Source: Acetobacteraceae bacterium (GTDB lineage: Bacteria; Pseudomonadota; Alphaproteobacteria; Acetobacterales; Acetobacteraceae). Taken from it: a stretch of DNA of 38,558 bases. The translations under genes were made by a program, and so were the position numbers. Under the pieces are notes generated by a model. It searched no databases and was not told the DNA's origin. It was given only the letters and a program-made list of their open reading frames with translations. Positions 2,588 through 29,309 of this stretch are shown piece by piece. Where the stretch lies: positions 1-38,558 of the forward strand of contig DAIDKZ010000094.1 of NCBI GenBank assembly GCA_027449745.1, written 5' to 3'. Position 1 is the stretch's first letter; every line of letters begins with the position of its first letter.

Positions 2588-4345
2588 GTGTGGGGAGCCT
2601 TTCGGCGTGGGGAGCGTTGGCGTCGCGCATGGCCGGCTGGCTTGACCGCTCTCGTCGCCGGTCTGCTTCCGTTGGCAGCGGCGGCACAGCCCGGAACGTT
2701 CATACCGCAGGCGTCACCGATCCCGCACATGCTGGCGCCGGAAACTCCGAGCGTCGGCGGCCTGCCGGCCGCACCGCAGCCTGCGGCGCCCGCCGCGGTG
2801 CCGGCGACCGAGGTCGCGGTCACCAGCGTCGCGATCGAGGGCGCCACCGTCTACCCGCCCGAACGGCTGGAGTCTTTCACGACGGGCCTGGTCGGTCCCG
2901 CGATCAAGCTGGCACGTATCGAGGCGGCGCGGGTGGCGCTGCTCAATCTCTATCGCGGCGACGGCTACGTTCTCTCCACCGTCTCCGCCTCGCTCGACGA
3001 GACCGGACGGCTGCGGTTTCTCGTGCTCGAGGGGCGGATTTCGGACGTCAAGCTGGACGGCGAGATCGGTCCTGCCGGTGTCCAGGTTCTGCGCTTTCTG
3101 CGCCACCTCACCGAGAAGGCTCCGATCGACGAGGCGACGCTCGAGCGGTGGTTGTTGCTGGCGCAGGATATTCCCGGCGTATCGCTGCACGCGGTGCTGC
3201 GCCCGTCGGCGGAAACGCCGGGCGCGATGACGTTGGTGGCGCAGGTCAGCCGCAGCGCCGTCTCCGGCCTGTTCACTGCGGATAATTACGCGTTCCGGGC
3301 GACCGGGCCCGAGGAATATCTGGGCGCCATCGATTTCAACAGCTTCACCTCGCTCGGTGAGCGGACGGAACTGTCGCTCTACCAGGGCAACGCCGGAACC
3401 CAGACCTTCGGCCAAGCGTCGGAGGAATTCTATGTCGGGGATTCGGGCCTGCGGGTTCGGGTCTATGGCGGCGCCGGAATCGCCACGCCGTCGGGCGAGT
3501 TGCGGGCGATCGGCTACCAGGACCTGATCGATCTCGGCGGGCTTTCGGCTACCTACCCGCTGCTGCGCTCGCGTCAGCAGAGCCTGACGCTCGGCGCCTA
3601 TTTCGACGTCGAGCAGATGGAGATCCTGACCAATTCGGGGGTTGGCGGCAGCTCCGCGCGGGCGAGCTTCGACGCGCTGCGGGTGTTTCGGTTCGGCGCC
3701 GACTATGCGCGCCAGGACCTTCTGCTCGGCGGCGACCGGGTCGCGCTGAACACAGCGAATGCCCGCGTCTCGCAGGGCATCCCGGGGCTGGACGGAACGT
3801 CCAACGCCAACCCGTTCCCCGGGCGTCTCGGCCAGCGGATCGACTTCACCAAGGTCAACGCCGAGTTCACACGGACCCAGACACTGTTCCAGCCATGGGC
3901 CGATGCGACCGTCGCCCTGAAGGGCTTGGTGGTCGGCCAATATACCAACGACGTGCTGCCGCCGTTCGAGGAGTTCTATCTCGGCGGACCGAACTACACG
4001 CGCGGCTATTTCTGGGGCGAGGCGTTCGGCGACCGTGCCCTCGCCGCCACGGCGGAGCTCGATCTCAACGAGTCGCTCGACGTGCGCGTCTTCGGGCACA
4101 GCCTGCCGCTCGCGGCGCAGTTCTACGTCTTCTACGATTGGGGCGAGACCTGGGACGTGACGCGTGGCGATCCGCACGCCGTCCTGCGGTCCGCAGGCGT
4201 CGGCACGCGGCTCGATCTCACCCAGTATGTCGAGTTCGATGTCATCGGCGCCGAGCGCTTCAGCCGTACCCCGTTCGGGACCGCCGGCGGGCTGCGGCCG
4301 CTGAGCGCCGATGCGATCTACTGGCAGGTGCTGGCGCATTTCTGA
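2588..4345 (+). CDS. Two-partner secretion outer-membrane transporter, TpsB / ShlB-FhaC family
   Basis: Omp85-superfamily beta-barrel protein of 585 residues that exports a TpsA partner across the outer membrane. A signal peptide (hydrophobic core about residues 16-29, ending AAAA before QPGTF) is followed by a proline-rich stretch, two POTRA-like domains (about 77-150 and 151-220) and a C-terminal barrel from about 225. The loop-6 motif is present as [11 protein letters not shown] (RGY at 472-474), and the last strands include VFYDWGETW. Start: GTG 2588 is preferred over the upstream TTG 2558 because a G-rich AGGGGGGAG sequence lies about 8-10 bases upstream and the signal peptide then has normal length. 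The tpsA partner starts 90 bases downstream on the same strand, so the pair is almost certainly co-transcribed. Confidence 0.93.
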
Positions 4346-4435
4346 AGGCTCCGGCCGGCATTGGCTGGGGACGATCAAACCGCCGAAGCCTGGCCTCAGC
4401 CGGCCAAGACCGTGGCGAGCGATAAGGCGAAAACG

Positions 4436-7400
4436 ATGCCGAAGACCGGGGTGCGAGAGCGGGGTGGGAGCGGACGGGGGACGATCCGTGCCGTCGGTCT
4501 GCTGCGACGCAGGCGCGCAGTGCTGCTGCGCGAGACCGCGCTCCAGGCCGCGGCTCTGACCCTGCTGGCGCTGCCGGTGCGGGCGCAGCCGGCGGCGAAT
4601 GCGCGGCCGACCGGGGGCAGTGTCATTGCCGGCAGTGCCACGATCGGCCAGTCGGCCAGCACGACCACGATCACTCAAACCACGCCGTTCGGCGCCCTGA
4701 CCTGGAGCGGGTTCGATGTCGGTGCCGGTCAGAGCGTCCAGTTCCGCCAGCCCTCCGCCAACGCGCTGACCGTCAACGAGGTGACGGCGCCGAACCCCTC
4801 GCTCATCGCCGGCCATATCGACGCCAACGGACGGCTCGTGCTGATCAACCGCTCGGGCGTGGTGTTCTATCCCGGCGCGCAGGTCGACGCCGCGGGGCTC
4901 GTCGTCTCGGCCATCGGCATGAACCAAGCCGCGGCGAAGCAGGGCCAGCTGGTGCTGGACCAGCCGGCGCGCGCCGGCGCACGCATCGTCAACGCCGGAA
5001 CGCTGACGGTGAAGCAGACCGGCCTCGCTGCACTGGTGGCGCCGCAGGTGGCGAATTCCGGGGTCATTTCGGCAAAGCTTGGCCACGTCGTGCTCGCCGG
5101 CGGCGCCGTCGATACCGTCGATCTCTATGGGGACGGGCTGGTTTCCTTCGACGTCACCCGCCAGACGCACCCGGCGGGGGACGGCAAGACGGCGCTGGTC
5201 ACCAACACCGGAACCGTGCTGGCCCAGGGCGGCACGGTGACGCTGACGGCAGCCCAGGCGGACGGTCTCGTGCAGACCCTGGTCGATGCCGGCGGACGCA
5301 TTGTCGCAAACAGTGTCGGGGCGCAGCGTGGCGCGATCGAGATCGCCGGGACCGGCGGGTCGATCGTCATCGCCGGCCGCCTTGCCGCCGATGGCCGCGC
5401 GCCAGGTGAGACCGGCGGGTCCGTGGCGGCGACCACGACCGGCACCGTGCTGCTCACCCCCACCGCCCATGTCTCCGCATCCGGTACGGCCGGCGGCGGT
5501 GCTGTTGCACTTGGCACGACGCTCGCCCGTGCGACCGGCGGTTCGGCGGTGCAGGCACCGATGGCGAAGCGGGTCGCCATCGCCAAGGGTGCGCGCATCG
5601 CGGCGGACGCGACCGGGCGGGGCGCTGGCGGGACGGTGACGGCGCTCTCGACCGAGGCGACCATCCAGCTCGGCACGATCTCCGCCCGCGGTGGTCCGCA
5701 GGGCGGGGATGGCGGACATGTCGAGATTTCGTCGATGGGCGCGCTCGATCTCTCCGGCATCATCGATGTCGCCGGGCCGCTCGGCGCGGCGGGAACGATC
5801 CTGATCGACCCCGTCGACCTGGTGATCGCGAATGCGGGCAACAACATCGCGCTGACCGACAACACCGATCCCAATCTTGCGTTCGCGACCATTGGGACGA
5901 GCAACCCGGCGACCATCACGGTCACGCAGATCGAAGGTCTGCACGGCAACATTCATCTCGAGGCGAGCAACAACCTCACCGTCGGCACCGGCAGCAGCCT
6001 CAGCCTGTCGCTCGGCCGCGGTCAGGCACTCACCCTGGAGGCCGGCAACAATCTCACCGTCAGCACCAACGCCACGCTGAGCACGAATGCGGCCGACATG
6101 GTGCTCACGGCGGCCTCGACCAGGAGCCCGACGCCGAACCCGGCGGGCTCGCTCGACATCGCCGGAACGCTCGTCGTCAATGGCAATCTCACCCTCAACG
6201 CTGGCAGCGGCGGCATCGGCCTCAGCGCGATTGCCTCGGTCACGGCAGGCAACATCACCGTCAACGCTCCGGCCGGCGCGGTCAGCGAACTCTCGGGCGG
6301 ACTGGTCAACACGCCCGGCACGCTGTTCGCGAGCGCGACCACGATCGATCTGCCGACGAATAGTGCCGGCGTCTCCAACAGCATCGCTACACTCGGCAAT
6401 ATCAGCACCGACGGCGGTCTGACCCTGACCATCTTCGGCCCGCTTAGCGTGAATGGTCCGCTGGTCGAAACCAAGAGCGCGATTACGCTGACTGATATCG
6501 GCAGCAGCAGCGGGATTGTTCTCAATGGCAACCTGCTGGCCGCAACCGGCGTAACCCTCAAGTCCCTTGGCGCCATCACCCAGAGCAGCGGCACCATCGG
6601 CCCATCCGGCACCGGCACGATCACCCTTTCGGGCAGCGCCGGCGGCGCGGTGTCGCTGAACAGCCTCGACGGCGTGCTCGGGAGTTTCAGCTCGAATGGC
6701 GGCTTCTCCTTCACCAAGAGTCAGGGCCTCGTTCTCACCGGCAATCTCGATGACCCGTCCGGGCCGATCGCGCTCACGGCCGCGAGCGGGGACTTGAAGC
6801 TTCAGGGCTCGATCAACACGAACGGCACCGTCGACCTGCAGGCGCCTGCCGGCAGCATCGTGCAGAGCCTCGGGACGATCGGGCCTAACGATGGGTTTGG
6901 CAAAGTCGCGGTCAATGCGAGTGCCGCCAACGTCATCCTGCTGACCGATCCGAACCTGATCGCGATACTCGGCGCCCTCACCGCCACGAACGGCGGCATA
7001 ACCGTGACTCAGGAGAGCGCCGCGTCACCCAACCCGTCGGTGCCGGTCACTATTTTGGGGCCGATCCACGCCGGAACCGGGCAGGCCATCGTCCTGACCG
7101 CGGATTCGATCGACCTGACCAACACCCCGACCGTGTCCGCCCCCAACGGGTCCATCCAGCTGGCGCCGGCCACGGCTGGCAGCGGCGTGGCGCTGTGGAG
7201 CGGTGGCCCACTCATGACCTCTCTCTCCGTCGCCACGCCGAACCTGATCAATTTCACTGCCGGCGCCCTGATCCTCGGGTCGGCATCGACCGGTGCGATC
7301 CAGATCGGCTCCCCGCTCGGTTACAACGGAGGACCGGTCGTCATGCCGAGCGGGCTGCCCGCGCTCGGGCTCGCCGGCGCCAAAGTGACCCAGACCGATC

Positions 7401-10400
7401 CTCTCAGTGTGCCGCTGCTGTTCGGCAGCACCGGCGCGGTCAATCTCCCCCTGGCCAACAACGTTGGCACGATCGGCGCCTACGCCGCGAGCGGCTCTTT
7501 CGCTCTGACCAACGCCGTCGGCATCGTTGTTGGCGGCGCGCTCAGTGTGCCCGGCGGAGCCGTCAGCCTGATCGCCCAAACCGGGGCGATCGGCGAGACC
7601 GGCACCGGGAGCATCACCGCTGCCTCGCTCACCGGCAGCGCAGGCCAAACCGTGCAACTTGACGCGACCCATGTCTCGGCCGGCGCGACGGTGGCCAACA
7701 ACCAGATCGGCACCCTGGCCGGCTTCACCTCGTTCGGCGGCTTCGCGCTCGCGAACGGCCAGGCGCTCACCGTGTCCGCCCCGCTCTCGGACACCGCCGG
7801 CCCGGTCTCGCTCACCACCACCGCCGGCGGTCTCACCCTCGGCGCCTCGATCACGGCCGTGGGCAGCGTGACCCTCAATTCGGCCGGGGCGATCACGCAG
7901 ACCGCGGGCACGATCGGGCCGTCCACCAATGCGCCGCTGGCGCTCACCGGCAGCGCCGGCGGGGCGGTGTCGCTGCCGGACGCCAATCAGATCGCGACCC
8001 TCGCCGGCTTCACCTCGTCGGGCGGCTTCACGCTCGCCGACGCCCAGGCGCTCACCGTCTCGGCCCCGCTGCAGGACACCGGGACCAACGGCACCATCGT
8101 GCTGAGCACCGCGACCGGCGATCTGATCCTCAACGCCAACCTGATCGCCGCCTCCGCCACGCTCGACCCGTTCGGTGCGCTCACCCAGACCGCGGGCACC
8201 ATCGCCGTCGGCATGCTGGCCGGCAAGACCGGTGGCACCGTCGCCCTGCCCGACGCCAACGCAATCGCCGCGCTCGGCTCGTTCACCGCCGGCAGCACGT
8301 TCAGCCTGACCGAAGCGGCCAGCCAGGCCTTGACCCTGACCGGCCCGCTCGCCGCGCCATCGGTGAATTTCTCCGGTGGAACCATCACCGAGAGCACGGG
8401 CGTGGTGAACACACAGACGCTTTCGGCCAACGTCGCCGCGCTCTCGCTCCCCCAGGGCAACAGCATCGGCCTCGAGACCGGTCTGATCGCCACTGTCGGC
8501 GGGGTGACCCTGGCCGAGGCGCCGGCCACGCCGCTGACGGTGGGGGGAGCGATCACCGTGCCAACTGGGCAGACCATCGCGCTCACCGCCGACACCGTGA
8601 CGCCGGGTGCGACGCCGGCCCTGAACGCGCCGGGCGGCGTGGTCATGCTCGCGCCGGCGACGCCGAACACCGACCTCACCTTCTTCGGTGCCGGCAACGC
8701 CAGTGGCAGCTTCGTCACGAACACCGGGCTCAGCGTGAATGCCGGCACGATCGCGCTCGGCAATGCCGCCACCGGCACCATAACCCTCGGGAATGGCGGA
8801 CTTCTCGACCTGCTCTCGGGCGGCGTCTCAACCCTGCAGGTGAATGGTGCGGCGGTGCAGGAGACCGGTGCCATCCGCGTCGGCACGCTGAGCGGCGCCC
8901 TCGGCGGCGATCTGACCCTTCCAGGCCCCAACGAGATCGTCACGCTCGGCAGCTTCACCAGCACGGCCGGAAGTCTCACCTTGGTCGAGGGATCAGGACA
9001 AAATCTCAGCATCACCGGCCCGGTGACCGCGACGGGGGGCGGCGCCAGCAGCATAAACGCCCCGGGCGGCATCACCGTCGGCGGCAATGTCGATGCCAGC
9101 GCGCTTGCCCTCGTGGGCGGTCCGATCAGCCAGAGTGCCGGCACGCTCACCGCCAGCAGCACCCTCACCCTCAGCGGCGGGCCGATCAGCCAGAGCGGCG
9201 GGATCATCAATGCCACGACCCTGACGGGCTCCGGCGGCCCGGTCAGTCTCGTCTCGGCCAATACCATCACCAATCTGGGCAACTTCACCTCCGGCGATTT
9301 CACCCTGACCGAGGCCGCCGGGCAGACGGTGTCGATCGTCGGCACGGTCTCCGCCCAGTCGGTCACCCTGAATACCGGGGCCTTCGTCGAGAATGGCGGC
9401 ATCATCAGCGCGGCCACGCTCGCCGCATCCGGTGGTTCGCTGCAGCTCTTGGGTGCGAACCAGATCAACACGCTCGGATCGATCGCGACCTCGGGTGGTG
9501 TCGCGCTCACCGAGGCGGCGGGCCAGGTGCTCACCGTCTCCGGTCCGGTCACTGATCCGAACAACATCGCCCTGACCGCGCCTGGCGGGATCGTCGTCGC
9601 CGGCTCCCTCGGGGCTTCGATTGTTTCGCTGACCGGCGGTGCGATCACCCAGACCGGGGGCACGATCTCGGCCCCGTTCCTCCTCGTTCTCAATGGCGGG
9701 CCGATCACGCAGACCGGCGGCGTCATCTCCGCCGGCACGCTGAGCGGGGCCGGCGGGCCGGTCGATCTGCCCGATGCCAACAGCATCACCGCGCTCGGCA
9801 GCTTCATGAGCTCCGGTGGGTTCGCGTTGACCGAGGCCGCGGGCCAGGCGCTCACGGTCTATGGTCCGCTCACCGATTCGACCTTGATCAGTCTCGATGC
9901 ACCGGGCGGGATGACGCTCGCCGGCACGATCTCCGCGCCGATCGTCTCGCTCAGTGGCGGCGCGATCACCCAGATACAAGGCCCTCTGGTCGCGGACTCG
10001 CCCACGCCCGGCCCCTCCTTCATCGCCACCGGCGCGCTGACCGGCTCGGCGGCTTCGGCGGGCCTCACTCAGCCTAACCAGGTCAATCAGGTCGCCGGAT
10101 TTTCTACGGGCGGCGATTTCGTGCTCACCGAGGCGACCGGGCAGAGCCTCGCCATCGCCGGCGCCGGCCTGCATGCGGGCGGCGCGGTCCTGCTCACCGT
10201 ACCGAGCGCGCTCACGCTCACCGCCGGCACGCTCGCTGGCGCCTCGGTCGCACTCGCCGTCGACGGCGCGGTATCGGAAACGGGCGGCGTGATGCACGTC
10301 GCGGGCGCGCTCACCGGCAGAGCCGGCGATCTCAATCTGGGCGGTGGCAACGAGATCGCCAGCCTCGGCAGCCTCACTTCGCTCGCCGGGCTCGCGGTGA

Positions 10401-12046
10401 CCAATGACAGCCTGCAACCGCTCGGCGTGACGAGCCCGGTGACGGCGCAGAACCCGATGATCCTGACCGCTCCGGCGGGGCTTGGACTCGCCGGCAACCT
10501 CTCCGCGCCCGCCATCGTGCTGAACGGCGGTGCGATCACCCAGAGCGCCGGCACGATCGCGACGACGACGCTGAGCGGAGCGGCGCAGTCGGCCACGCTG
10601 GTCTCGGCCAATGCAGTCGGCACGCTCGCCGGCTTCACCGCGCCGGGCGGGTTGGTGCTGACGAACGCGGCGGCGAAACCGCTGATCGTCTCCGGTCCGG
10701 TCCAGAGCGACGGCGCGGTGACGCTCACCGCCCCGGCCGGGCTGACCATCGCGGGCAGCATCGCCGGCGGCACGGTGAGCGTGAATGCGGCAACCGTCAG
10801 CGAGTCGGGCGGGCTGATCGCCGCCGGCACCCTCACCGGCACGACCGGCACCGCGACGCTGACGGCGGCCAACGCGATCGGTACCCTGGGCGACTTTTCG
10901 GCATCCAGTCTCGCGCTGAACGATGCCGGCGCGCTGACGCTGGCCGGCATCGTCAACGCTCCCAGCGTCAGCTTGACCGCCGGCGGCGCGATCAGCCAGA
11001 CCGGTGGAGCCCTCATCGCATCGACGCTGACCGGCGCGGCCCCCGCCGCCTCCTTCAGCGCACCGGGGAACCGCGTGACGACGCTGGGCAGCTTCACCTC
11101 GGCCGGTGCGGTGCTGCTCGCCGACGCGATCCCGCTCGCCGTCGCCGGCCCCGTCGGCGTGGGCAGCCTGACCTTGATCGATCCCGCTACGGTCGACTTC
11201 ACCGGTACGGTGGGCACCGGTCTGCTTGCCCTCGACAACACCGGCAGCGTGAGCCAGACCAGCGGCACGATTTCCGCGGCCAGGCTGACGGGTTCGGTCG
11301 GCGCCTCGGTCCAGCTCGGACCCGACGCCCCGGGGCCGGTCGCCGAGATCGGCAGCATCGGGGCCTTCAGCGTCAGCGGTCCGCCCGGCCGGTTCGTCCT
11401 CAACGACGCCGTGCCGCTGACCATCACCGGCCCGCTGTCGGCGCCCTATATCGTGATCAGCGCGCCAGGGCGGATCACGCTCGACGGCGCGCTGATCGCG
11501 ACGCTCGGCGCGCCGCTGGCCCAGCAGAACGGCCCGGTGCCGGCCCCCGGCGGCTCCGATTTCAATGTGCTAGCCGCGGGGGCTGGCACGCCGAGCTTTG
11601 TCGGGCTCGGCAGCATCGTGGTGGAGGGGCTGGGCGGCGCGCCGACGTTGCGCATCCAGGTGCCGACGACCGGCGGCTCCATCGCCCTGGGCAGCATCAG
11701 CGGCGGGGATCTGACCCTCGTTCTCGGCCAGGGGCCGGGCCAGGCGACCGGCAATGTCAATGTCGGCGCCCTGCTCGTCGTCGGCACCGGCGGCTCCGCC
11801 AATCTCACCGGCTCGGTCGGAGGCCTTGGTTCGGAGGCGGCGGCGCGGCAGGCGAACATCCTGCCGCTCGAAAACGCCGCCTACCGGATCAATTCCTGCC
11901 CGATCCACTCGGTCAACTGCGTGCTCATCGGCCTGCTCACCCTGCCGACCACCAACCCGCTGCAGGACCTTGCCATCGATTCGGTGCGCGCGGCGCAGGA
12001 GGACCCGGACGTGATGCTGCCCGTGATCGCCAGCCAGGACTACTGA
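4436..12046 (+). CDS. Large secreted filamentous-hemagglutinin-like exoprotein (TpsA) with internal repeats
   Basis: Predicted 2536-residue beta-helical surface or secreted protein exported by the adjacent TpsB. After an extended basic leader and signal peptide (ending VRA before QPAAN) comes a TPS secretion domain (about residues 55-300) with the expected GGSVIAGSATI start, FRQPSANALTVNEV, and LINRSGVVF in place of the usual NPNG motif. From about residue 650 to 2335 there are about 18 degenerate repeats of 85-95 residues built around ITQTxGTI, LPDANxI, LGSFTSxGGF and QALTVSGPL. The only two cysteines I found are C2488 and C2495, 49 residues from the end, which recalls the C-terminal disulfide anchor of HMW1. 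Start: ATG 4436 with AAGG 8 bases upstream; a TTG at 4361 is in frame but less likely. An adhesin role is inferred from family. Confidence 0.92.
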   Translation: MPKTGVRERGGSGRGTIRAVGLLRRRRAVLLRETALQAAALTLLALPVRAQPAANARPTGGSVIAGSATIGQSASTTTITQTTPFGALTWSGFDVGAGQSVQFRQPSANALTVNEVTAPNPSLIAGHIDANGRLVLINRSGVVFYPGAQVDAAGLVVSAIGMNQAAAKQGQLVLDQPARAGARIVNAGTLTVKQTGLAALVAPQVANSGVISAKLGHVVLAGGAVDTVDLYGDGLVSFDVTRQTHPAGDGKTALVTNTGTVLAQGGTVTLTAAQADGLVQTLVDAGGRIVANSVGAQRGAIEIAGTGGSIVIAGRLAADGRAPGETGGSVAATTTGTVLLTPTAHVSASGTAGGGAVALGTTLARATGGSAVQAPMAKRVAIAKGARIAADATGRGAGGTVTALSTEATIQLGTISARGGPQGGDGGHVEISSMGALDLSGIIDVAGPLGAAGTILIDPVDLVIANAGNNIALTDNTDPNLAFATIGTSNPATITVTQIEGLHGNIHLEASNNLTVGTGSSLSLSLGRGQALTLEAGNNLTVSTNATLSTNAADMVLTAASTRSPTPNPAGSLDIAGTLVVNGNLTLNAGSGGIGLSAIASVTAGNITVNAPAGAVSELSGGLVNTPGTLFASATTIDLPTNSAGVSNSIATLGNISTDGGLTLTIFGPLSVNGPLVETKSAITLTDIGSSSGIVLNGNLLAATGVTLKSLGAITQSSGTIGPSGTGTITLSGSAGGAVSLNSLDGVLGSFSSNGGFSFTKSQGLVLTGNLDDPSGPIALTAASGDLKLQGSINTNGTVDLQAPAGSIVQSLGTIGPNDGFGKVAVNASAANVILLTDPNLIAILGALTATNGGITVTQESAASPNPSVPVTILGPIHAGTGQAIVLTADSIDLTNTPTVSAPNGSIQLAPATAGSGVALWSGGPLMTSLSVATPNLINFTAGALILGSASTGAIQIGSPLGYNGGPVVMPSGLPALGLAGAKVTQTDPLSVPLLFGSTGAVNLPLANNVGTIGAYAASGSFALTNAVGIVVGGALSVPGGAVSLIAQTGAIGETGTGSITAASLTGSAGQTVQLDATHVSAGATVANNQIGTLAGFTSFGGFALANGQALTVSAPLSDTAGPVSLTTTAGGLTLGASITAVGSVTLNSAGAITQTAGTIGPSTNAPLALTGSAGGAVSLPDANQIATLAGFTSSGGFTLADAQALTVSAPLQDTGTNGTIVLSTATGDLILNANLIAASATLDPFGALTQTAGTIAVGMLAGKTGGTVALPDANAIAALGSFTAGSTFSLTEAASQALTLTGPLAAPSVNFSGGTITESTGVVNTQTLSANVAALSLPQGNSIGLETGLIATVGGVTLAEAPATPLTVGGAITVPTGQTIALTADTVTPGATPALNAPGGVVMLAPATPNTDLTFFGAGNASGSFVTNTGLSVNAGTIALGNAATGTITLGNGGLLDLLSGGVSTLQVNGAAVQETGAIRVGTLSGALGGDLTLPGPNEIVTLGSFTSTAGSLTLVEGSGQNLSITGPVTATGGGASSINAPGGITVGGNVDASALALVGGPISQSAGTLTASSTLTLSGGPISQSGGIINATTLTGSGGPVSLVSANTITNLGNFTSGDFTLTEAAGQTVSIVGTVSAQSVTLNTGAFVENGGIISAATLAASGGSLQLLGANQINTLGSIATSGGVALTEAAGQVLTVSGPVTDPNNIALTAPGGIVVAGSLGASIVSLTGGAITQTGGTISAPFLLVLNGGPITQTGGVISAGTLSGAGGPVDLPDANSITALGSFMSSGGFALTEAAGQALTVYGPLTDSTLISLDAPGGMTLAGTISAPIVSLSGGAITQIQGPLVADSPTPGPSFIATGALTGSAASAGLTQPNQVNQVAGFSTGGDFVLTEATGQSLAIAGAGLHAGGAVLLTVPSALTLTAGTLAGASVALAVDGAVSETGGVMHVAGALTGRAGDLNLGGGNEIASLGSLTSLAGLAVTNDSLQPLGVTSPVTAQNPMILTAPAGLGLAGNLSAPAIVLNGGAITQSAGTIATTTLSGAAQSATLVSANAVGTLAGFTAPGGLVLTNAAAKPLIVSGPVQSDGAVTLTAPAGLTIAGSIAGGTVSVNAATVSESGGLIAAGTLTGTTGTATLTAANAIGTLGDFSASSLALNDAGALTLAGIVNAPSVSLTAGGAISQTGGALIASTLTGAAPAASFSAPGNRVTTLGSFTSAGAVLLADAIPLAVAGPVGVGSLTLIDPATVDFTGTVGTGLLALDNTGSVSQTSGTISAARLTGSVGASVQLGPDAPGPVAEIGSIGAFSVSGPPGRFVLNDAVPLTITGPLSAPYIVISAPGRITLDGALIATLGAPLAQQNGPVPAPGGSDFNVLAAGAGTPSFVGLGSIVVEGLGGAPTLRIQVPTTGGSIALGSISGGDLTLVLGQGPGQATGNVNVGALLVVGTGGSANLTGSVGGLGSEAAARQANILPLENAAYRINSCPIHSVNCVLIGLLTLPTTNPLQDLAIDSVRAAQEDPDVMLPVIASQDY
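6388..11440 (+). repeat. About 18 degenerate ~280-bp coding repeats inside tpsA
   Basis: Successive units encode the pattern LG-x-FTS-x-GGF-x-LTEA-x-GQALTVSGPL, followed by an APGG...LAG strand pair and an ITQTGGTI strand. Anchoring on the GGF/GQAL segment, I count about 18 units over about 5 kb, or 93 residues on average. Neighbouring units around 7680-8060 and 9480-9860 are the most alike; the outer ones are diverged. The pattern suits stacked rungs of a right-handed beta-helix and is a likely site for recombination-driven length variation. Confidence 0.7.
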
Positions 12047-12048
12047 GC

Positions 12049-15000
12049 ATGCGCGCGCCTCTCCGGTTCGCCTTTTTGGTCCTCCCGCTGCTCGCCACGT
12101 GCGCGACCCCGCCGCCCTCGGCCTATGTCGGGCGCAGCTCGCAGACATCCGGCTCGGCGCAACCCCTCGGCAAGGACCAGGCCGGCGAGGATTGCGTGCT
12201 GCAGTCCGCCGGACCGGCGGCGGCGGCGGTGTTCTGCGGCACGTGGCAGCAGCCGAGCGCACAGGTTCGCCGGGGTGCGGCCGTGGCCTCGCTGATGCAA
12301 GCGGCGACGTCCGGGCCGTGGCGCACCGCGCTCGATGTCCGCGTAACCTGCGAGGCGCCGACCTCGACCAGCATCCTGGACGGGGCGCCGGCGCTGCTGA
12401 TGCAGTGCCGGCGGAAGGTTGGCGGCTGGCCGCACGTCGCGCTGGTCGCCGGAATCGGCGATGCGACCTACTATGCGGATGGGGTCCTGCCTGCGATCGG
12501 GCCCACGGAGCGCGCCGTCGGTGTGCTGTCGGGCCGGCTTGCCGCGTCTGCCGCCGGCACCGCGTCGGGCGCGGCGCGCTCGGCGGCCGATGCCCTGATG
12601 GCGAGCCGTCTGGCGGCGCAGGCCTTCAGTTCGGGCGATATCGGCCAGTATGAAACGCTGGTGCGGCTCGGCACGCGTGCCAATCTGGCAGAGAACTTCG
12701 CCGCCGCCGAGCAGGCGTTCCGCGCCGCGTTGGCGCTGCAGCAGAAGGCCCTCGGGCACGATGATCCGAACACGGCTGTGCCGCTTTCCTATCTCGCGCT
12801 CCAGATCTCCGACCAAGGTCGCTTTGCGGAAGCGGATGGGCTCTTCGCCGACGCGGCGCGGCGCGCAGTCAAGGCCTCCGACCCCGGCGCGCGCGCGCGG
12901 CTGCTGCATGATGAGGGATTGCACGCGCTGAACCAGGGCAAGTTCGCGGAAGCGCGGGTGTTCCTGACCCGTGCCGAAGCCGCGTTTTCGGCGCTGGTTC
13001 CCTCGGAGGCGCTGGCCGCCCGGCCGCCGCCGGACGTGCGTCGCCTCGCGCCCGGCCAGCCTGCCGCGGTGCGCCTGGCCGAACTCGTGCCCAGCCGCGC
13101 CCTGCTGGAGGATCCGGTGCAGCGCGCAGCGCTGCTCGGGCTGGTGGAAACGCGACGCTATCTGAGCATCGTGCTCGGCGCCCAGGGGGACTCCGCCGCC
13201 TCGGCGGCGATGATCGCCTCCGCCGTGATGCTGGCGCGCGCGAACGGGCTTGACCAACCGATTCTCACCTCACGCCTCTATCGCACCGCCGCCGCCGCCG
13301 CCGCGGCGACGGGCGAGCAGGGGCGGGCGCTGACGGACCTCGCCCGTTCGGCCGAGGCATTTGCGGAGGCCCTGCCGGGGACACGTCCGATCGCTGAGAC
13401 CGACTTGCTGCAGGCCGGCGGTCTCGTGAAGGTTGGCCAGCTTGGCGAGGCGCTCGACCTCTGTCGCAAGGCAATCGCCCTGCTGCGCGATTTGCGGGCC
13501 GGCACGAGCGATGAGCTGATCGCGCCGTGTCTCGACGCCTACGCTGACACCGCCGACCGCCAGCCGGGCGAGCGCCAGCATGTGCTTGGCGAGATGTTCG
13601 AGGCGGCCCAGCTGGCGCAGGGCGGTATCACGAGCCAGCAGATCGCTCTCGCCACCGCGCGGCTCAGCGCCAGCGCACGCGACCCGAAGGTTGCCGAGGC
13701 GGTCCGCCGGCGACAGGATGCCAGCGCGGGCCTCGCGGATCTCTACCGCCAGCGCGATGAGCTGGCCAAGCCGCGCCAGCCCGGTGAGTCCGCGCCGGCG
13801 ATGACGGCGGCCGAACTCGACAAGCGCATTGCGGAGGCGCAGGCGACCCTCGCGGATGCGGACAGTGCCTTGCAGGCGGCGGCGCCGAATTACGGCCAGC
13901 TGGTTCAACAGATCGCCCCCGCGACCGCCGTCCTCGCCGCGCTGCATTCGGGGGAGGCGTTCGCCAGCTTTGCGCTGACCGCGCAAGGCGGCTGGGCTTT
14001 CCTGCTGCATGATGGCGTCGTCGCCGTGGCGCGGCTCAAGACCGGCACCGTCGGCCTGACCGCGCTGGTGCGGCGCGTCCGCGCCTCGATTGAGCCGGGC
14101 GAGGCCGGGGTTCCCCGCTTCGATACGGCCGGCGCGGCGGACCTCTACACCGATACGCTGGCACCGCTGCTGAAAGGGGCCGGCACGGTCCGCTCCCTGA
14201 TCGTCGCGCCGGCTGGACCGCTTCTCTCCCTGCCGTTCGCGGTGCTCCTGACCGGCCCGGGCGACCCCGACGCGCTGGCCGCCGCTCCGTGGCTCGTGCG
14301 GCGCCTGACCCTGGCGCACGTGCCCGCGGCGGCGAACTTCGTGGCCCTGCGTAAGCTCGCCGGCACCTCGCGCGCGGCCCGGCCATGGTTCGGGTTCGGT
14401 GACTTCCGTCCGGCCACACTGGCTCAGTCGGAGCGGAGTTTTCCGGGCGCGCGCTGTGCCGACAGTGCCCGGCTCTTCGCCGGGTTGCCTCCGCTGCCGC
14501 TGGCGCGGCGCGAACTCGAGGCAGCGCGTGCGCTGCTCGGCGGCGGGTCGGACGACGAACTGCTCGGCCCGGCCTTTACCGCCGAGGCCGTTGCGCGCGC
14601 CGCCCTCGGCAACTACCGCGTGCTCCATTTCGCCACGCACGCGCTGCTTCCAGCGGAGCTGAAATGCCAGGGGGAGCCGGCCATCGTGACCTCCACGCCG
14701 CCGAACGCCCCCGACGTGTCGGGCGCGCTGCTCACCTCTTCGGATATCACCGGCCTGAAGCTCGATGCCGACGCGGTGATCCTCTCCGCGTGCAACTCCG
14801 CGGGGCCCGGTGGGGCGAGCGCCGGTGAGAGTCTCTCCGGATTGGCGCGAGCCTTTTTCTATGCCGGGGCGCGGGCGCTGCTGGTCACACACTGGTCCGT
14901 GAACGACCAGGCGGCGGCATTCCTTGTGGCGGACACGCTGCGCCGGCTGCGGGCCGGGGACGCAGGTGGCCTCGCCGGGTCACTGCGTGGGGCCGAACTC

Positions 15001-15129
15001 GGCATGCTCGACGATGCCGGCAAGGGGCTGCCGGCGGCGCTGGCGCACCCGTTCTACTGGGCACCATTCGCGCTCATCGGCGAGGGGGCCGGCGCGACGG
15101 TTTCTCCGACCCGTCAAGCCGGGCTATAG
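12049..15129 (+). CDS. TPR and CHAT-domain (caspase-like) protein with N-terminal export signal
   Basis: A 1026-residue protein starting two bases after the tpsA stop. The N-terminus MRAPLRFAFLVLPLLATCA looks like a signal peptide, possibly a lipoprotein signal cleaved before Cys18, although threonine at -1 is atypical. A small cysteine-containing domain (about 40-170) precedes TPR-like helices (about 205-320), further alpha-helical repeats, and a coiled coil (about 545-615). The C-terminal CHAT domain (about 700-1015) retains the caspase-type dyad: H864 in LHFATHALL and C915 in ILSACNSAG. CHAT proteins are clan CD peptidases or scaffolds. Location in a TPS operon suggests processing, release or quality control of TpsA, but its substrate is unknown. 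If the signal is real, the protease acts in the periplasm or at a membrane, unlike the cytoplasmic CHAT proteases of CRISPR systems. Confidence 0.88.
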   Translation: MRAPLRFAFLVLPLLATCATPPPSAYVGRSSQTSGSAQPLGKDQAGEDCVLQSAGPAAAAVFCGTWQQPSAQVRRGAAVASLMQAATSGPWRTALDVRVTCEAPTSTSILDGAPALLMQCRRKVGGWPHVALVAGIGDATYYADGVLPAIGPTERAVGVLSGRLAASAAGTASGAARSAADALMASRLAAQAFSSGDIGQYETLVRLGTRANLAENFAAAEQAFRAALALQQKALGHDDPNTAVPLSYLALQISDQGRFAEADGLFADAARRAVKASDPGARARLLHDEGLHALNQGKFAEARVFLTRAEAAFSALVPSEALAARPPPDVRRLAPGQPAAVRLAELVPSRALLEDPVQRAALLGLVETRRYLSIVLGAQGDSAASAAMIASAVMLARANGLDQPILTSRLYRTAAAAAAATGEQGRALTDLARSAEAFAEALPGTRPIAETDLLQAGGLVKVGQLGEALDLCRKAIALLRDLRAGTSDELIAPCLDAYADTADRQPGERQHVLGEMFEAAQLAQGGITSQQIALATARLSASARDPKVAEAVRRRQDASAGLADLYRQRDELAKPRQPGESAPAMTAAELDKRIAEAQATLADADSALQAAAPNYGQLVQQIAPATAVLAALHSGEAFASFALTAQGGWAFLLHDGVVAVARLKTGTVGLTALVRRVRASIEPGEAGVPRFDTAGAADLYTDTLAPLLKGAGTVRSLIVAPAGPLLSLPFAVLLTGPGDPDALAAAPWLVRRLTLAHVPAAANFVALRKLAGTSRAARPWFGFGDFRPATLAQSERSFPGARCADSARLFAGLPPLPLARRELEAARALLGGGSDDELLGPAFTAEAVARAALGNYRVLHFATHALLPAELKCQGEPAIVTSTPPNAPDVSGALLTSSDITGLKLDADAVILSACNSAGPGGASAGESLSGLARAFFYAGARALLVTHWSVNDQAAAFLVADTLRRLRAGDAGGLAGSLRGAELGMLDDAGKGLPAALAHPFYWAPFALIGEGAGATVSPTRQAGL

Positions 15130-15137
15130 ACGCGGTC

Positions 15138-17225
15138 ATGGACGCAAACCGTCTCGGCAAGTACGAACTGCGCGGCGAGCTTGGTCGCGGCGCCATGGGC
15201 ACCGTCTATGAGGGGTTCGACCCGGCGATCGCGCGGCGGGTGGCGATCAAGACCGTACGTCTGCCCGATCCAACCGATAGCGAGGCGCAGGAGGAGCTGG
15301 CGCGCTTCCGCCGCGAGGCGCAGGCCGCCGGGCGGCTCTCGCATCCGAATATCGTCGGCGTCTTCGACACCGGCGAAACGGAGACGCTCGCCTATATCGT
15401 CATGGAGTTCGTCGATGGGCGGACCTTGAAGGCGGTGCTCGACAAGGGCGAGCGCATGGCGCCGGCGGATGTCGGGCGGGTGATGCGCGATGTGCTGGCG
15501 GGGCTCCAATACAGCCACGACCAGGGCGTCGTTCACCGCGACATCAAGCCCGCCAATATCATGCTGACGCAGGCTGGGCAGGCGAAGATCGCGGATTTCG
15601 GCATCGCACGCATCGAGAGCAGCAGCATGACCCAGGCCGGGACCATGCTCGGAACCCCGGCCTATATGTCGCCTGAGCAGTTCATGGGGCAGACCGTGGA
15701 CGCGCGGACCGACATCTATTCGGCCGGAGTCCTGCTCTACCAGCTGCTCACCGGCGAGCGGCCGTTCGAAGGCAGCAGCCTCAGCGCGATCATGCACAAG
15801 GCGCTGAATACCGAACCGCTCAAGCCATCGGCCCTGTCGGTCACGGTGCCGGCGGCGATGGACGCGGTCGTGGCGCGTGCCCTGGCGAAGCGGCCCGACG
15901 AGCGCTTCGCATCGGCGGCCGAATTTGCCCGCGCGCTCGAGAGCGCTCTCTCCGACGCCGAAGGTGGTGCGTCGGCGGAGGCGACGATCGTCGCCTCCGG
16001 CCGGCCGCAAAGTGGCGCCGCTCCGAAGACGGCCGATGCGCCACGGGCGGCTGCCTTGGCCGGTGGCCCTTCGGGCGCGAACCGGCCGGCGGACGGTGCG
16101 CCGCACTCACGCCGGACGGCGCCACTGCTCGCAGGCGCGGGGGCGCTGGCGCTTGCGCTGGCTGCCGGGGCCTGGTTCGGCCTTCGCCCCGCACCCGCAC
16201 CCGCACCCGCATCGGCGCCTGCGCCGCCGGCAACGCCAAGTGGCGTAACGGCGCCTTTGCCACCCTCCTCGGAGGCGTCGGCGGGGGGCGCTGGCAGCCC
16301 GGCGGAGCCGGCTGTCCCATCCGTACCGGCGCAGCAAGCGGCACCAAGTCCGGTCCCGCCCAGTTCGGCGGCGGTTCCGGCGGCCATTCCGAATCCGGCA
16401 CCGATCACGACGCCCAGCGCCGCACCCGAGGCGGTCGCAGAGACGGCACCGCCGGCCGGACCGTCCGTCCCTGCGCCCTCGGTAGCGCCGCCGCCAATCG
16501 CGCCCGCGCCGTCACCGCCGCCTGAGCGGCTAGCCCTTGCCACCCCGCCGGCGGTCGCGCGCGCGGCCGTCGCCGCCGCGGCGCTGCATGCGGGTTGCAC
16601 GCTGGTCGGCGGCGAGATCGCCGGCGCCACCGTGACCGTCAATGGCCTGGCCGGCGTCGGCAGGCCGGACGAAGCGCTGCGCCAAGCGATCGCAACTGCG
16701 GCCCCCGGCGCCGCGATCGACTGGCACCTGACCCGCTTCGATGGCCCCTACTGCGCCGCGCTCGACACACTACGCCCACTTCGCCCGCCATTCACCGCGA
16801 GTGCTGCCCGCTTCGACGTCGGCCTGCTCGGCGGGCGGACCCGGCTCGTCGACGGTGACTCGATCATCGTCGCCTTGCAGCTCCCGGATTTCCCGGCCTA
16901 TGTGCAGATGGATTATTTTCAGCACGACGGCTCGGTTTTCCACATGCACGACGCCGCAGGCGGAGCGCCCTGGCCGGCCGGCTCGGCGCAGGAGCTGGGG
17001 CGGCCGAAGCCTGGGTTCAGCGGTTGGCAGGTGAGCGAACCCTATGGCACCGACATGATCGCAGCCGTGGCCAGTTCGGCGCCGCTGTTCGCCAAGCCGC
17101 GCGAGGCGCTTGAGCCAGCCGAAGCGTATCTCGCCGCGCTCACCGCCGCGCTCAGCGCGGCCCAGGCCGCGGGTGGACGTCTGGCCGCAGATGCGGTGGT
17201 CCTGGTCACCGCGCCCAAGCACTGA
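15138..17225 (+). CDS. Transmembrane Ser/Thr protein kinase with DUF4384-like C-terminal domain
   Basis: Hanks-type kinase of 695 residues, 8 bases after the CHAT gene stop. The N-terminal catalytic domain (about 9-275) is complete: glycine loop GRGAMGTVYEG, K38 in VAIK, E60 of helix C, HRDIKPAN with D135 and N140, D153-F-G, and GTPAYMSPEQ in the activation segment. One membrane helix follows at about 328-347 (LLAGAGALALALAAGAWFGL). Then comes a Pro/Ala-rich linker to about 470 and a C-terminal domain containing a DUF4384-like stretch (FDVGLLGG, DGDSIIVALQLPDFPAYVQ, DYFQHDGSVFHMH). By family topology the kinase faces the cytoplasm and the C-terminal region the periplasm. Being last in the tps/CHAT operon, it probably senses or controls that system; substrates are unknown. 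Confidence 0.92.
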   Translation: MDANRLGKYELRGELGRGAMGTVYEGFDPAIARRVAIKTVRLPDPTDSEAQEELARFRREAQAAGRLSHPNIVGVFDTGETETLAYIVMEFVDGRTLKAVLDKGERMAPADVGRVMRDVLAGLQYSHDQGVVHRDIKPANIMLTQAGQAKIADFGIARIESSSMTQAGTMLGTPAYMSPEQFMGQTVDARTDIYSAGVLLYQLLTGERPFEGSSLSAIMHKALNTEPLKPSALSVTVPAAMDAVVARALAKRPDERFASAAEFARALESALSDAEGGASAEATIVASGRPQSGAAPKTADAPRAAALAGGPSGANRPADGAPHSRRTAPLLAGAGALALALAAGAWFGLRPAPAPAPASAPAPPATPSGVTAPLPPSSEASAGGAGSPAEPAVPSVPAQQAAPSPVPPSSAAVPAAIPNPAPITTPSAAPEAVAETAPPAGPSVPAPSVAPPPIAPAPSPPPERLALATPPAVARAAVAAAALHAGCTLVGGEIAGATVTVNGLAGVGRPDEALRQAIATAAPGAAIDWHLTRFDGPYCAALDTLRPLRPPFTASAARFDVGLLGGRTRLVDGDSIIVALQLPDFPAYVQMDYFQHDGSVFHMHDAAGGAPWPAGSAQELGRPKPGFSGWQVSEPYGTDMIAAVASSAPLFAKPREALEPAEAYLAALTAALSAAQAAGGRLAADAVVLVTAPKH

Positions 17226-17335: not shown

Positions 17336-17410
<75 letters not shown>

Positions 17411-22434: not shown

Positions 22435-22869
22435 ATGGCGAAGAAAATTGTCGGCTACATCAAGCTGCAGATTCCGGCCGGCAAGGCGAATCCATCGCCG
22501 CCCGTCGGTCCCGCGCTCGGCCAGCGTGGTCTGAACATCATGGCGTTCTGCAAGGAATTCAACGCTGTGACGCAGGGGATGGAGCCGGGCATGCCGGTTC
22601 CGGTGGTGATCACGGCGTTTGCGGATCGCACCTTCACGTTCATCACCAAGACGCCGCCCAACTCCTATTTCTTGCTCAAGGCCGCGAAGATCGAGAAGGG
22701 CTCGACCACTGCCGGCAAAGGGGCGTCGGTCGGCCGCGTGACCATCACGCAATTGCGTGAGATCGCCGCGCAGAAAATGAAGGATATGAACGCCAACGAC
22801 GTCGATGCAGCGGTCCGCATGCTGGCGGGTTCCGCGCGATCGATGGGTCTCACCGTGGTGGAGGGCTGA
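22435..22869 (+). CDS. rplK: 50S ribosomal protein L11
   Basis: Full-length L11 (144 residues), part of the GTPase-associated centre of the large subunit together with L10 and L7/L12. The N-terminal domain shows the conserved proline run [19 protein letters not shown], and the C-terminal rRNA-binding domain shows [14 protein letters not shown] and [18 protein letters not shown]. Start ATG 22435 gives the standard [17 protein letters not shown] lies about 10 bases upstream. First gene of the ribosomal/RNA polymerase block; rplA starts 4 bases after its stop. Confidence 0.99.
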
Positions 22870-22873
22870 TCCG

Positions 22874-23566
22874 ATGGCGCTGGGCAAGAGGCTGAAGGCG
22901 ATCCACGCCGAGATCAATGCCGGCCGGAGCTATGCGCTCTCCGAGGCAATCAAGCTGGTGAAGGCGAACGCGCGCGCCAAGTTCGATGAGACTGTTGAAA
23001 TCGCGATGAATTTGGGTATCGATCCGCGCCACGCGGACCAGATGGTGCGTGGCCTGGTGGGGCTGCCCAACGGAACGGGTAAGGTCGTGCGCATCGCCGT
23101 CTTTGCCCGCGGCGCCAAGGCCGAGGAGGCGACGGCCGCAGGGGCCGATGTGGTCGGCGCGGAGGATTTGGCGGAGAAGGTGCAGGGTGGCGAGATCAAT
23201 TTCGACCGTTGCATCGCAACCCCGGACATGATGGGCCTTGTCGGCCGGCTTGGGAAAATTCTCGGACCGCGCGGGCTGATGCCGAACCCGCGGCTAGGCA
23301 CCGTGACCATGGACGTCAAGGGCGCCATTGCCGCGGCGCAGGCGGGCCAGGTGGAGTTTCGAGCCGAAAAGGCCGGTATCGTCCATGCCGGCATCGGCAA
23401 GGCGAGCTTTCCCGAGGAAAAGCTGATCGAGAATGCCCGAGCCTTCGTGGACGCGATCCAGAAGGCGAAGCCGACCGGGGCCAAGGGCACCTATTTGAAG
23501 AAGGTGTCGCTGAGTTCGTCGATGGGCGCCGGTGTGCGGGTCGATCTGACGACGCTGGCCGGCTGA
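22874..23566 (+). CDS. rplA: 50S ribosomal protein L1
   Basis: Full-length L1 (230 residues), which binds 23S rRNA at the L1 stalk and, in well-studied bacteria, represses translation of the L11-L1 mRNA. Signature [19 protein letters not shown] is present, as are [16 protein letters not shown] and the C-terminal [21 protein letters not shown] 22874 is 4 bases after the rplK stop, consistent with translational coupling. The region of more than 300 bases that follows is a structured leader for rplJ. Confidence 0.99.
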
Positions 23567-23883
23567 CCGGCCGAGGAGATTCGCCACCTTCCGATCGGAG
23601 GTGGCGGGCAGGGTGAGGGGTCGCCCTCATCCGAACCTGTCCGAGACTGCACGTGCTCGCCTTCGACGGCGAGCATAATGGGCGGTGAGCCCGCGCGCGG
23701 TAGACGGGGTGGCCATGACAAGGGAGCGCGCTGAGCGCTCCGGCGTCCTGGCGGTTCCGGCTATGGGGTGCGCCGAGAGGCGTGCGCCGAAGGACAGGCG
23801 AACCGGGTCGTCCGCTGAGCGGGCGCCCCATGGGCCAACCCGGTCCGTCGCCGCAAGGCGCCGGGCCAGACAGGAGACGGGAC
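23567..23883 (+). promoter_or_regulatory. Structured rplJ (L10) leader, 317 bases without a gene
   Basis: No real gene fits here; the short open frames lack homology and good starts. The RNA has clear hairpins. One pairs CGCCACCTTCCGA (23582-23594) with TCGGAGGTGGCG (23595-23606), with one bulged T. Another is a perfect stem GCTCGCC/GGCGAGC (23655-23661/23668-23674), and a third is GGAGCG/CGCTCC (23723-23728/23736-23741). Nearest rplJ, an outer stem ACCGGGT/ACCCGGT (23802-23808/23838-23844) encloses two small hairpins, CCGC/GCGG and GCCC/GGGC, i.e. a three-way junction. By analogy with other bacteria, L10(L12)4 probably binds this junction to repress rplJL translation. Confidence 0.65.
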
Positions 23884-24402
23884 GTGGACCGTACGGAGAA
23901 GCGGGAGTTTGTCGCCTCGCTCGCCGCGGTGTTTGCAGAAACGTCGATGGTCGTGGTCACCCGGAACAAGGGGCTGACCGTGGCTGAAGTGACGGATCTG
24001 CGGCGCCGTATGCGGGCGGCGGGGGTAAGCTTCAAAGTCGCGAAGAACCGGCTGGCCTCGCTCGCCCTGGCAGGGACCCGATTCGACGGCATCGAGCCAA
24101 TGCTGAAGGGGCCGACCGCGCTCGCGTGGTCGCACGACCCTGTGGCAGCGGCCAAGGTCGCCGTCGAGTTCGCCAAGACCAACGAGAAGCTGGTGGTGGT
24201 TGGCGGCGCGCTCGGCTCCCGGACGCTGGATGCGGACGGGATCAAAGCGCTCGCCGAATTGCCGTCGCTGGAGATGCTGCGGGCGCAGGTGGCGGGGCTT
24301 GTCGCCACGCCAGCGACGCGCATCGCGGGCGTTCTGCAGGCGCCGGCCGGCCAGCTCGCACGGGTCTTCGGGGCTTATGCCAAGCGCGATGAGGCGGCCT
24401 GA
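23884..24402 (+). CDS. rplJ: 50S ribosomal protein L10
   Basis: L10 (172 residues) anchors L7/L12 dimers to the ribosomal stalk and usually acts as autogenous repressor of rplJL. The start is GTG 23884 (VDRTEKREFVASLAAVF), with AGGAG ending 7 bases upstream; the frame is open for 34 more codons, but these lie in the structured leader. Typical features include VVVTRNKGLTVAEVTDLRR, FKVAKNRLASLAL, PMLKGPTALAW and the C-terminal L12-binding helix region. rplL follows after 101 bases containing a stable hairpin. Confidence 0.98.
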   Translation: MDRTEKREFVASLAAVFAETSMVVVTRNKGLTVAEVTDLRRRMRAAGVSFKVAKNRLASLALAGTRFDGIEPMLKGPTALAWSHDPVAAAKVAVEFAKTNEKLVVVGGALGSRTLDADGIKALAELPSLEMLRAQVAGLVATPATRIAGVLQAPAGQLARVFGAYAKRDEAA

Positions 24403-24440
24403 CCGTCGCGACGCGCGAGCGGGTAGAGCCTACGCATGTC

Positions 24441-24465
24441 GGCACCCCGCACGAGCGGGGTTGCC
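24441..24465 (+). promoter_or_regulatory. rplJ-rplL intergenic hairpin
   Basis: ACCCCGC (24444-24450) pairs perfectly with GCGGGGT (24455-24461) around the loop ACGA; GGC/GCC extends the stem past one bulged T. No U-run follows. Position just upstream of rplL suggests mRNA processing or stabilisation that favours the extra copies of L7/L12 needed per ribosome; that role is inferred. Confidence 0.5.
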
Positions 24466-24503
24466 AGGAACCGGACTAGGACGCATAGTAGAGGATCAAG
24501 ATC

Positions 24504-24884
24504 ATGGCCGATTTGTCGAGGTTGGTTGAAGAGCTCTCCGCGCTGACGGTGCTGGAGGCTGCGGAGCTGTCGAAGCTTCTCGAGGAAAAGTGGGGCGTAT
24601 CCGCGGCCGCTCCGGTCGCTGTGGCGGCGGCTCCGGCGGCAGGCGCTGCCGCGGCGGCGCCGGTCGAGGAGCAGACGGAATTCACCGTCATCCTGGCCAA
24701 GGCGGGTGAGAAGAAGATCAACGTCATCAAGGAAATCCGGACGATCACCGGGCTTGGCCTGAAGGAGGCGAAGGACCTGGTCGAAGGCGCCCCCAAGACG
24801 GTCAAGGAGGGTGTCAACAAGGATGAGGCGGCGAAGATCCGCAAGGTGCTTGAGGAGCAAGGCGCTTCTGTCGAGATTAAGTGA
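24504..24884 (+). CDS. rplL: 50S ribosomal protein L7/L12
   Basis: Stalk protein (126 residues) that recruits and stimulates translational GTPases. The N-terminal dimerisation helices ([20 protein letters not shown]) are joined through an Ala/Pro-rich hinge (about residues 33-53) to the globular C-terminal domain with [19 protein letters not shown] and [23 protein letters not shown] 24504 has AGAGGA about 8 bases upstream. Lies between two hairpin-bearing gaps. Confidence 0.99.
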
Positions 24885-24934
24885 CATCGCTGCGGCCGAT
24901 ACCGGCTGCGAGCTGCGCCGTTCTCGCTTACGGG

Positions 24935-24998
24935 ACGGGCGGGGATCCGAGGGATCGCCGCCCGTAACGGCGTCAGCCACCTGCCTGGCAGAGGCAGG
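24935..24998 (+). promoter_or_regulatory. rplL-rpoB intergenic hairpins (attenuator or processing-like)
   Basis: The 231-base gap before rpoB carries two strong hairpins. The first pairs ACGGGCGG (24935-24942) with CCGCCCGT (24958-24965) and, inside one G-G mismatch, GATCC with GGATC around the loop GAG. The second pairs CCTGCCT (24980-24986) with AGGCAGG (24992-24998). Neither has a trailing U-run. In E. coli the same gap holds an attenuator and an RNase III site that lower rpoBC expression relative to rplL; a similar role is inferred here. Confidence 0.55.

Positions 24999-25115: not shown

Positions 25116-29309
<4,194 letters not shown>

Follow-up and report, generated by a model that had tools for sequence, protein, structure and literature searches.

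A conserved two-partner secretion operon with an exported CHAT protein and a membrane kinase in Acetobacteraceae: a putative envelope-spanning module

The operon

We analyse here a stretch of 38,558 nucleotides (contig DAIDKZ010000094.1 of the 3.3-Mb draft genome GCA_027449745.1 of an Acetobacteraceae bacterium; hereafter the window), in which the genes tpsB and tpsA of a two-partner secretion (TPS) pair are followed by a gene for a CHAT protein and a gene for a Ser/Thr kinase, and sequence comparison supports the reading that the four genes form one conserved envelope-spanning module. As judged from the open-reading-frame calls and their translations, the four frames are all intact and co-directional at the expected coordinates (Table 1), with intergenic gaps of 90, 2 and 8 bases under the starts GTG 2588 for tpsB and ATG 4436 for tpsA. 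The gene order, spacing and motifs described in a first-pass annotation of this DNA are borne out by these calls and by Pfam, as is the length given there to TpsA when its frame is started at that ATG. TpsB has Pfam matches to ShlB (3.1e-11) and POTRA_2 (1.6e-10) and one to Omp85 above the cut-off, and the product of the adjoining tpsA carries the TPS domain with 87.8 bits, so that at the gene level, with a POTRA/Omp85 TpsB and an adjacent TPS-domain TpsA, the locus appears to be of type Vb. Note that the word adhesin, used below for TpsA, is inferred from its TPS domain and repeat architecture alone.

Table 1. Features of the operon, with positions in the window
Feature	Position	Strand	Evidence
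tpsB: outer-membrane two-partner-secretion transporter (POTRA_2 + ShlB barrel)	2588..4345	+	Pfam; homologue in 16/16 CHAT-positive family genomes
tpsA: 2536-aa exoprotein, extended signal peptide, TPS domain, long repetitive beta-helix-like body	4436..12046	+	Pfam TPS 1.4e-24
TPS secretion domain of TpsA	4604..5341	+	PF05860
Cys hairpin CPIHSVNC near TpsA C-terminus (residues 2488-2495)	11897..11920	+	alignment
Terminal tag DVMLPVIASQDY, extreme TpsA C-terminus	12008..12043	+	pattern match
Exported TPR-CHAT lipoprotein, predicted (caspase-like, clan CD)	12049..15129	+	Pfam CHAT 1.5e-46 + TPR_12; AlphaFold model
CHAT lipobox Cys18 (LLATC, then xPPxAYV)	12100..12102	+	near-invariant alignment column
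CHAT domain; dyad His864 (14638-14640), Cys915 (14791-14793)	14134..15084	+	PF12770
Single-pass Ser/Thr kinase, predicted periplasmic C-terminal domain	15138..17225	+	Pfam Pkinase 1.2e-55
Kinase predicted transmembrane segment (~residues 329-349)	16122..16184	+	top hydropathy windows
Kinase predicted periplasmic domain: alpha/beta part, then DUF4384 (~16851-17084)	16569..17222	+	homologues, model

Conservation and linkage

The linkage of the genes was examined in 36 Acetobacteraceae genomes, one per genus except for three from the window's own genus, with the presence of TpsB scored at E below 1e-95 and that of the kinase by a search for its C-terminal domain only. CHAT and TpsB of this type share an identical set of genomes, 16 of the 36 having both and 20 being without, and the kinase C-terminal domain is present in 15 of the 16 CHAT-positive genomes and in none of the 20 CHAT-negative ones, giving Fisher p values of 1.4e-10 for CHAT and TpsB and of 2.9e-9 for the kinase domain, both of which ignore phylogeny. 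The order of the genes is kept too. Of 81 loci (the window and 80 loci of named relatives), 70 have a TpsA-like frame that ends shortly before CHAT on its 5' side; of the 65 in which 1.5 kb or more of sequence remains, 44 have the kinase directly 3' of CHAT, full TpsB-TpsA-CHAT-kinase clusters being seen, for example, in loci L127, L129, L132 and L135. Almost all of the named relatives that the CHAT profile retrieved bear the label Acetobacteraceae, Rhodospirillales or unclassified Proteobacteria, and the system is present in Acidocella facilis ATCC 35904, Acidocella aquatica NBRC 112502, Acetobacter garciniae TBRC 12339 and Falsiroseomonas bella CQN31. CHAT and kinase genes thus clearly stand beside these tps genes in dozens of loci rather than in this genome only, and a chance adjacency in one genome is ruled out by the co-occurrence and by the order kept in many loci. 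The conserved linkage and order support the single envelope-spanning device that the first-pass annotation had proposed.

The TPS-CHAT association is also seen in other families, since among 192 alphaproteobacterial genomes 11 same-strand TPS-CHAT pairs within 15 kb were observed versus about 0.22 expected. Most of the other-family CHAT proteins that were read carry lipoprotein or type I signals (the N-termini of L184 and L185 being left out of this reading). Based on these counts, the possibility can be weighed that the four genes are ordinary neighbours, sharing an operon for co-expression while their products act in separate processes. Compact operons are indeed usual in high-GC genomes, and a third of the loci have no kinase 3' of CHAT; however, the perfect co-occurrence, the conserved order, the recurrence of TPS-CHAT pairs in other families and the covariation of the TpsA tail described below all speak against it, and we consider it very improbable.

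Several further observations on these loci are noted. In another class of the same phylum, TPS and CHAT genes adjoin in L201:4778-12069, L200:4723-11239 and L199:4545-6225, the order in L201 being TpsB-CHAT-TpsA and its CHAT having a signal-like N-terminus. CHAT and TPS genes can be neighbours in Cyanobacteria as well. An Acetobacteraceae-type TpsB-TpsA-CHAT locus occurs in L056 (CAJCJG010000342.1), titled Solirubrobacterales bacterium 70-9, an assembly that is probably mislabelled or contaminated. A seeming TpsA-CHAT fusion in L184 (open frame of 2513 residues) was rejected, being a high-GC open frame with the TPS match in a different frame. Around the operon in the window, a co-directional XRE/M78/ScfRs regulator gene of the RamB type lies upstream (1051-2490), with no evidence of membership in the module; a tRNA-Thr lies past the kinase 3' end (17336-17410), a ribosomal-protein and RNA-polymerase cluster (L1, L7/L12, rpoB; 22805-29309) lies about 5 kb downstream, and a SulP sulfate permease gene (35975-38470) closes the contig.

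The CHAT protein

The CHAT protein of the window, which scores 159.6 bits against the Pfam CHAT family, was aligned with its orthologues, 14 sequences in all. Their N-termini are hydrophobic, and the lipobox closes with the near-invariant Cys18, a column absent only from one contig-truncated orthologue, with the variants LAGC, LAAC, LASC and GSC and with xPPxAYV after the Cys, and by this conserved lipobox the protein is predicted to be a lipoprotein. Six more cysteines are invariant or nearly so in the same alignment, and from their pairing (C49/C63, C101/C120, C803/C873) disulfides, formed outside the cytoplasm, would be expected. By the usual rule, a residue other than Asp after the lipoprotein Cys favours the outer membrane; as the residue at this position is never Asp in the orthologues, placement of the CHAT protein at the outer membrane is favoured. 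What had been described as an apparently exported protein is therefore strengthened in that description by the lipobox and the paired cysteines, and export would put the CHAT protein in the right compartment for meeting TpsA. A cytoplasmic CHAT of the CRISPR or defence type is ruled out by the same lipobox and cysteine pattern, and in PADLOC the CHAT protein, TpsA and TpsB match no defence model; the kinase matches the kinase models PD-T4-6 and mad6, mostly across the kinase domain.

The His-Cys dyad, noted before as intact, is invariant in the 14 orthologues and also in 21 TPS-linked and related CHAT proteins from Acetobacteraceae and other families, which counters the notion of a pseudo-protease. 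Note also that a seeming loss of the HxAxH motif in some families concerns only its first, non-catalytic His. The AlphaFold model (mean predicted local distance difference test, pLDDT, 77) aligns best with the TPR-CHAT protein Csx29 of Craspase (Z 26.9, root-mean-square deviation (rmsd) 6.3, 534 residues) and also with separase (Z 22.6). With N-terminal TPRs and the His-Cys dyad, the protein fits the TPR-CHAT architecture of clan CD and is a candidate protease.

Alternatively, the CHAT protein might work in the periplasm without proteolysis, as a scaffold or chaperone that docks the TpsA tail and relays a signal, as DdvA may. The transmembrane anti-sigma factor DdvA ranks first in Foldseek with the CHAT model (E 7.8e-11), the VIA alignment of the two spans both TPR and CHAT (Z 19.8, rmsd 14.2, 509 residues), and the TPR part matches by profile the kinesin light chain, which binds peptides. 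A pure scaffold, however, needs no such constancy as that of His864 and Cys915, which never vary in the 21 diverse proteins, and we thus regard this possibility as unlikely.

The conserved tail of TpsA

The body of TpsA is highly variable in length among the loci, with the C-terminal end conserved. When seven full-length TpsA are aligned, the invariant positions are concentrated at the two ends, within ~460 residues of the N-terminus and ~60 of the C-terminus. In the typical tail a Cys hairpin CPIxSVNC is followed by an extreme end resembling DLLLPNVSDRDY, with LPNVSxxDY as the terminal tag. A pair C-x5-6-C is found within the last 70 residues of 60 of the 70 CHAT-linked Acetobacteraceae TpsA. 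The terminal tag, taken as the pattern P-x-[VIALT]-[SAG]-x-x-[DEGN]-[YF]-end, is found in 58 of the 70 versus none of 14 TpsA without an adjacent CHAT, with a p value of 3e-9 that is indicative only, as the tail patterns were written after inspecting the tails and related sequences are non-independent. In other groups the ends of CHAT-linked TpsA often bear a second motif, GNExLW (9/13).

As separate observations, the second motif, written G-N-E-x-[LF]-[WFI], is often flanked by acidic runs (L196:3-2876, L186:1667-8275, L118:8120-11710), and such tails resemble the W-acidic peptides that bind the TPRs of kinesin light chain. Moreover, genome G017 has several TPS-CHAT loci, among which L139:4960-12719 and L140:4725-10671 retain the tag (VPNAGGRDF and LPNAGSRDF), with the Cys hairpin lost and no kinase beside them.

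That a conserved C-terminal tag goes along with a clan CD enzyme, here moreover a predicted exported lipoprotein, could also mean that CHAT is a C-terminal sorting transpeptidase, cutting the TpsA tail and joining TpsA covalently to a surface acceptor. PorU and the glycosylphosphatidylinositol (GPI) transamidase are clan CD enzymes that cut proteins and attach them to a surface acceptor. Neither a hydrophobic sorting segment nor an acceptor gene was seen, however, and the Cys hairpin offers a simpler anchoring, so that we give this possibility little credence.

In HMW1 and HxuA a disulfide loop retains the TpsA C-terminus in the periplasm, and CdrA, likewise a TpsA protein, is shed when LapG cuts its periplasmic tail (PMC5422565; PMC4694147). 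By analogy with this retention and this cutting, CHAT would meet TpsA at the conserved hairpin and tag, and the reading that we favour has CHAT binding the TpsA tail and probably cutting or guarding it.

The membrane kinase and its replacement

The kinase (Pkinase, 189 bits) retains K38, HRDIKPAN and DFG and has one hydrophobic segment, followed by a 31%-proline segment. Its end in the window scores 21.3 bits against DUF4384, below the cut-off of 27, and DUF4384 is found at E<=1 in 34 of 37 kinase homologues, with 2e-10 as the best value. The earlier description of a single-pass kinase with a DUF4384-like end is thus upheld through the homologues, with DUF4384 remaining sub-threshold in the window copy, and with its kinase domain, single transmembrane segment and DUF4384 end the protein fits the class of Ser/Thr protein kinases (STPK) with DUF4384. 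For the model of the C-terminal domain (pLDDT 93.5), Foldseek gave no match in the PDB at E<=0.001, and VIA alignments of up to Z 9.5 were to common Ig-like sandwiches (complement C5, V. cholerae RbmA) and are little informative; the N-terminal alpha/beta part of this domain corresponds to a BON domain in the protein of the distant homologue locus L188.

The first-pass annotation also gave the kinase a part in controlling, cleaving or releasing the adhesin. This claim does not agree with the topology, as the catalytic domain is predicted to lie in the cytoplasm and CHAT and TpsA act beyond it. The periplasm is free of ATP, and a kinase is unable to act directly on exported proteins there. It is therefore unlikely that the kinase controls the adhesin directly.

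In other alphaproteobacterial families, a CHASE2-adenylate/guanylate cyclase stands in the kinase's place (L119:2569-4611, L125:3765-5771, L189:3283-5229), a CHASE2 protein lies beside the TPS-CHAT pair in L118 and L190, and in L188 the membrane partner is an STPK with a BON and a DUF4384-like end; in one other family (L184, L185) no such membrane partner was seen next to the pair. As the membrane partner varies by family, TPS-CHAT would form the core, and the signalling part would be interchangeable, the kinase being the form that it takes in Acetobacteraceae. The common retained feature is, on the sequence evidence, a membrane protein that carries a candidate sensor domain in the periplasm. 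CHASE2-cyclases are known to sense outside and to signal inside. Since the kinase is replaced by such cyclases, an inward-reporting receptor fits better than an adhesin-modifying enzyme, and the swap favours signalling from the outside in.

The opposite direction, a control from the inside out as with LapD and LapG, would have the kinase taking cytoplasmic cues, its periplasmic domain sequestering or freeing the CHAT protease, and the adhesin being shed on command. The compartments would be the same as those of LapA/LapD/LapG and CdrA/LapG (PMC4694147; PMC5422565), CHAT is apparently exported with an intact dyad, and the kinase adjoins CHAT. The swap for CHASE2-cyclases, however, argues against this direction, and an active kinase domain is an output rather than an obvious ligand receptor; we thus hold the inside-out control to be doubtful.

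Proposed model

We propose a model in which the operon is a type Vb secretion system extended by a module for envelope processing and sensing. In the model, TpsB would export the giant TpsA, the C-terminus of which (the disulfide-hairpin tail and the terminal peptide) would stay in the periplasm like those of HMW1 and HxuA. The TPR-CHAT lipoprotein, probably on the periplasmic face of the outer membrane, would bind this tail, and either its His-Cys dyad would cleave it, bringing about the maturation or release of TpsA, or CHAT would hold it until a trigger. The inner-membrane kinase would sense the state of the complex through its periplasmic BON-like/DUF4384 domain and signal inward by phosphorylating cytoplasmic targets. 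The sequences themselves show the gene set and its conservation, the export signals, the intact dyad, the association of the tail with CHAT and the swap of the membrane partner; tail retention, the contact of CHAT with the tail, cleavage and the direction of the signal are the inferred parts, the cleavage of TpsA by CHAT being plausible. For the whole model, with periplasmic CHAT acting on the retained TpsA tail and the membrane kinase reporting inward, we would give a probability of roughly 0.45.

Several points weigh against the model. No kinase lies 3' of CHAT in 21 of the 65 loci, two of these having a divergent kinase upstream, and in genome G029 no kinase was found. The lipobox of the window CHAT is atypical, with Thr at −1 in LLATC. 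The Cys pair is missing from 10 of the 70 CHAT-linked tails, the CHAT-linked TpsA of L125, L189, L203 and L201 carry neither tag, and TpsB or some other factor might be what reads the tag. Finally, CHAT proteins can be non-proteolytic scaffolds.

More broadly, and only tentatively, we suggest that an exported TPR-CHAT protein reads the TpsA tag and sets the surface fate of TpsA by cleavage or transpeptidation, with an exchangeable kinase or cyclase receptor signalling inside, and that such systems constitute a widespread, undescribed class of type Vb. If the proposal is true, caspase-like CHAT enzymes, best known as intracellular, would act in the bacterial envelope, and a giant surface protein would be tied to kinase or cyclase signalling. 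The gene set suggests a previously unnoticed bacterial means of watching or trimming a surface adhesin, for which the conserved TpsA tail gives a specific prediction at the level of residues.

Comparison with known systems

The component families are all known. We did not find them combined in this way, with an exported CHAT encoded in the operon, a tagged TpsA and a membrane signaller that can be swapped, in the literature as far as our incomplete coverage goes, and papers pairing "CHAT domain" with "two-partner secretion" or "CHASE2" were likewise not found, which is weak evidence of novelty as few subscription journals were covered. A review of two-partner secretion from 2017 notes that the proteases which mature TpsA appear to be encoded outside TPS operons (PMC5422565), and it is for this reason that a cysteine-protease candidate, apparently exported and borne by the operon itself, is of interest.

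With HMW1A/B and HxuA/B the present system has in common the TpsB/TpsA pair and the C-terminal cysteine pair, but for them no CHAT or kinase gene is described, and the LPNVSxxDY tag occurs here only on CHAT-linked TpsA. With Csx29 (Craspase, type III-E CRISPR) and separase, the TPR or helical-repeat part, the CHAT fold and the His-Cys dyad are shared; these two are intracellular, whereas the window CHAT has a lipoprotein signal peptide, extra conserved cysteines and a TPS partner. DdvA (PDB 8rot, 8rw5) likewise has a TPR-CHAT-like fold in a membrane-associated signalling protein, but it is a transmembrane anti-sigma factor, whereas in the present system CHAT resides on a lipoprotein of its own and the kinase provides the cytoplasmic output.

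The system CdrA-LapG-LapD of Pseudomonas aeruginosa shares with the present one a TpsA adhesin, a periplasmic cysteine protease (here a candidate) and an inner-membrane signaller with a periplasmic part. By Pfam, no LapG-type or GGDEF/EAL domain is found in the four window proteins, and the locus is hence not of the LapADG type. LapG is a transglutaminase-like protease, whereas the candidate here is a TPR-CHAT lipoprotein; LapD is a receptor of cyclic di-GMP, whereas its place is taken here by a Ser/Thr kinase or a CHASE2-cyclase; and, unlike in CdrA-LapG-LapD, tpsB, tpsA and the protease candidate share one operon. The resemblance is thus one of function, between systems built from unrelated parts.

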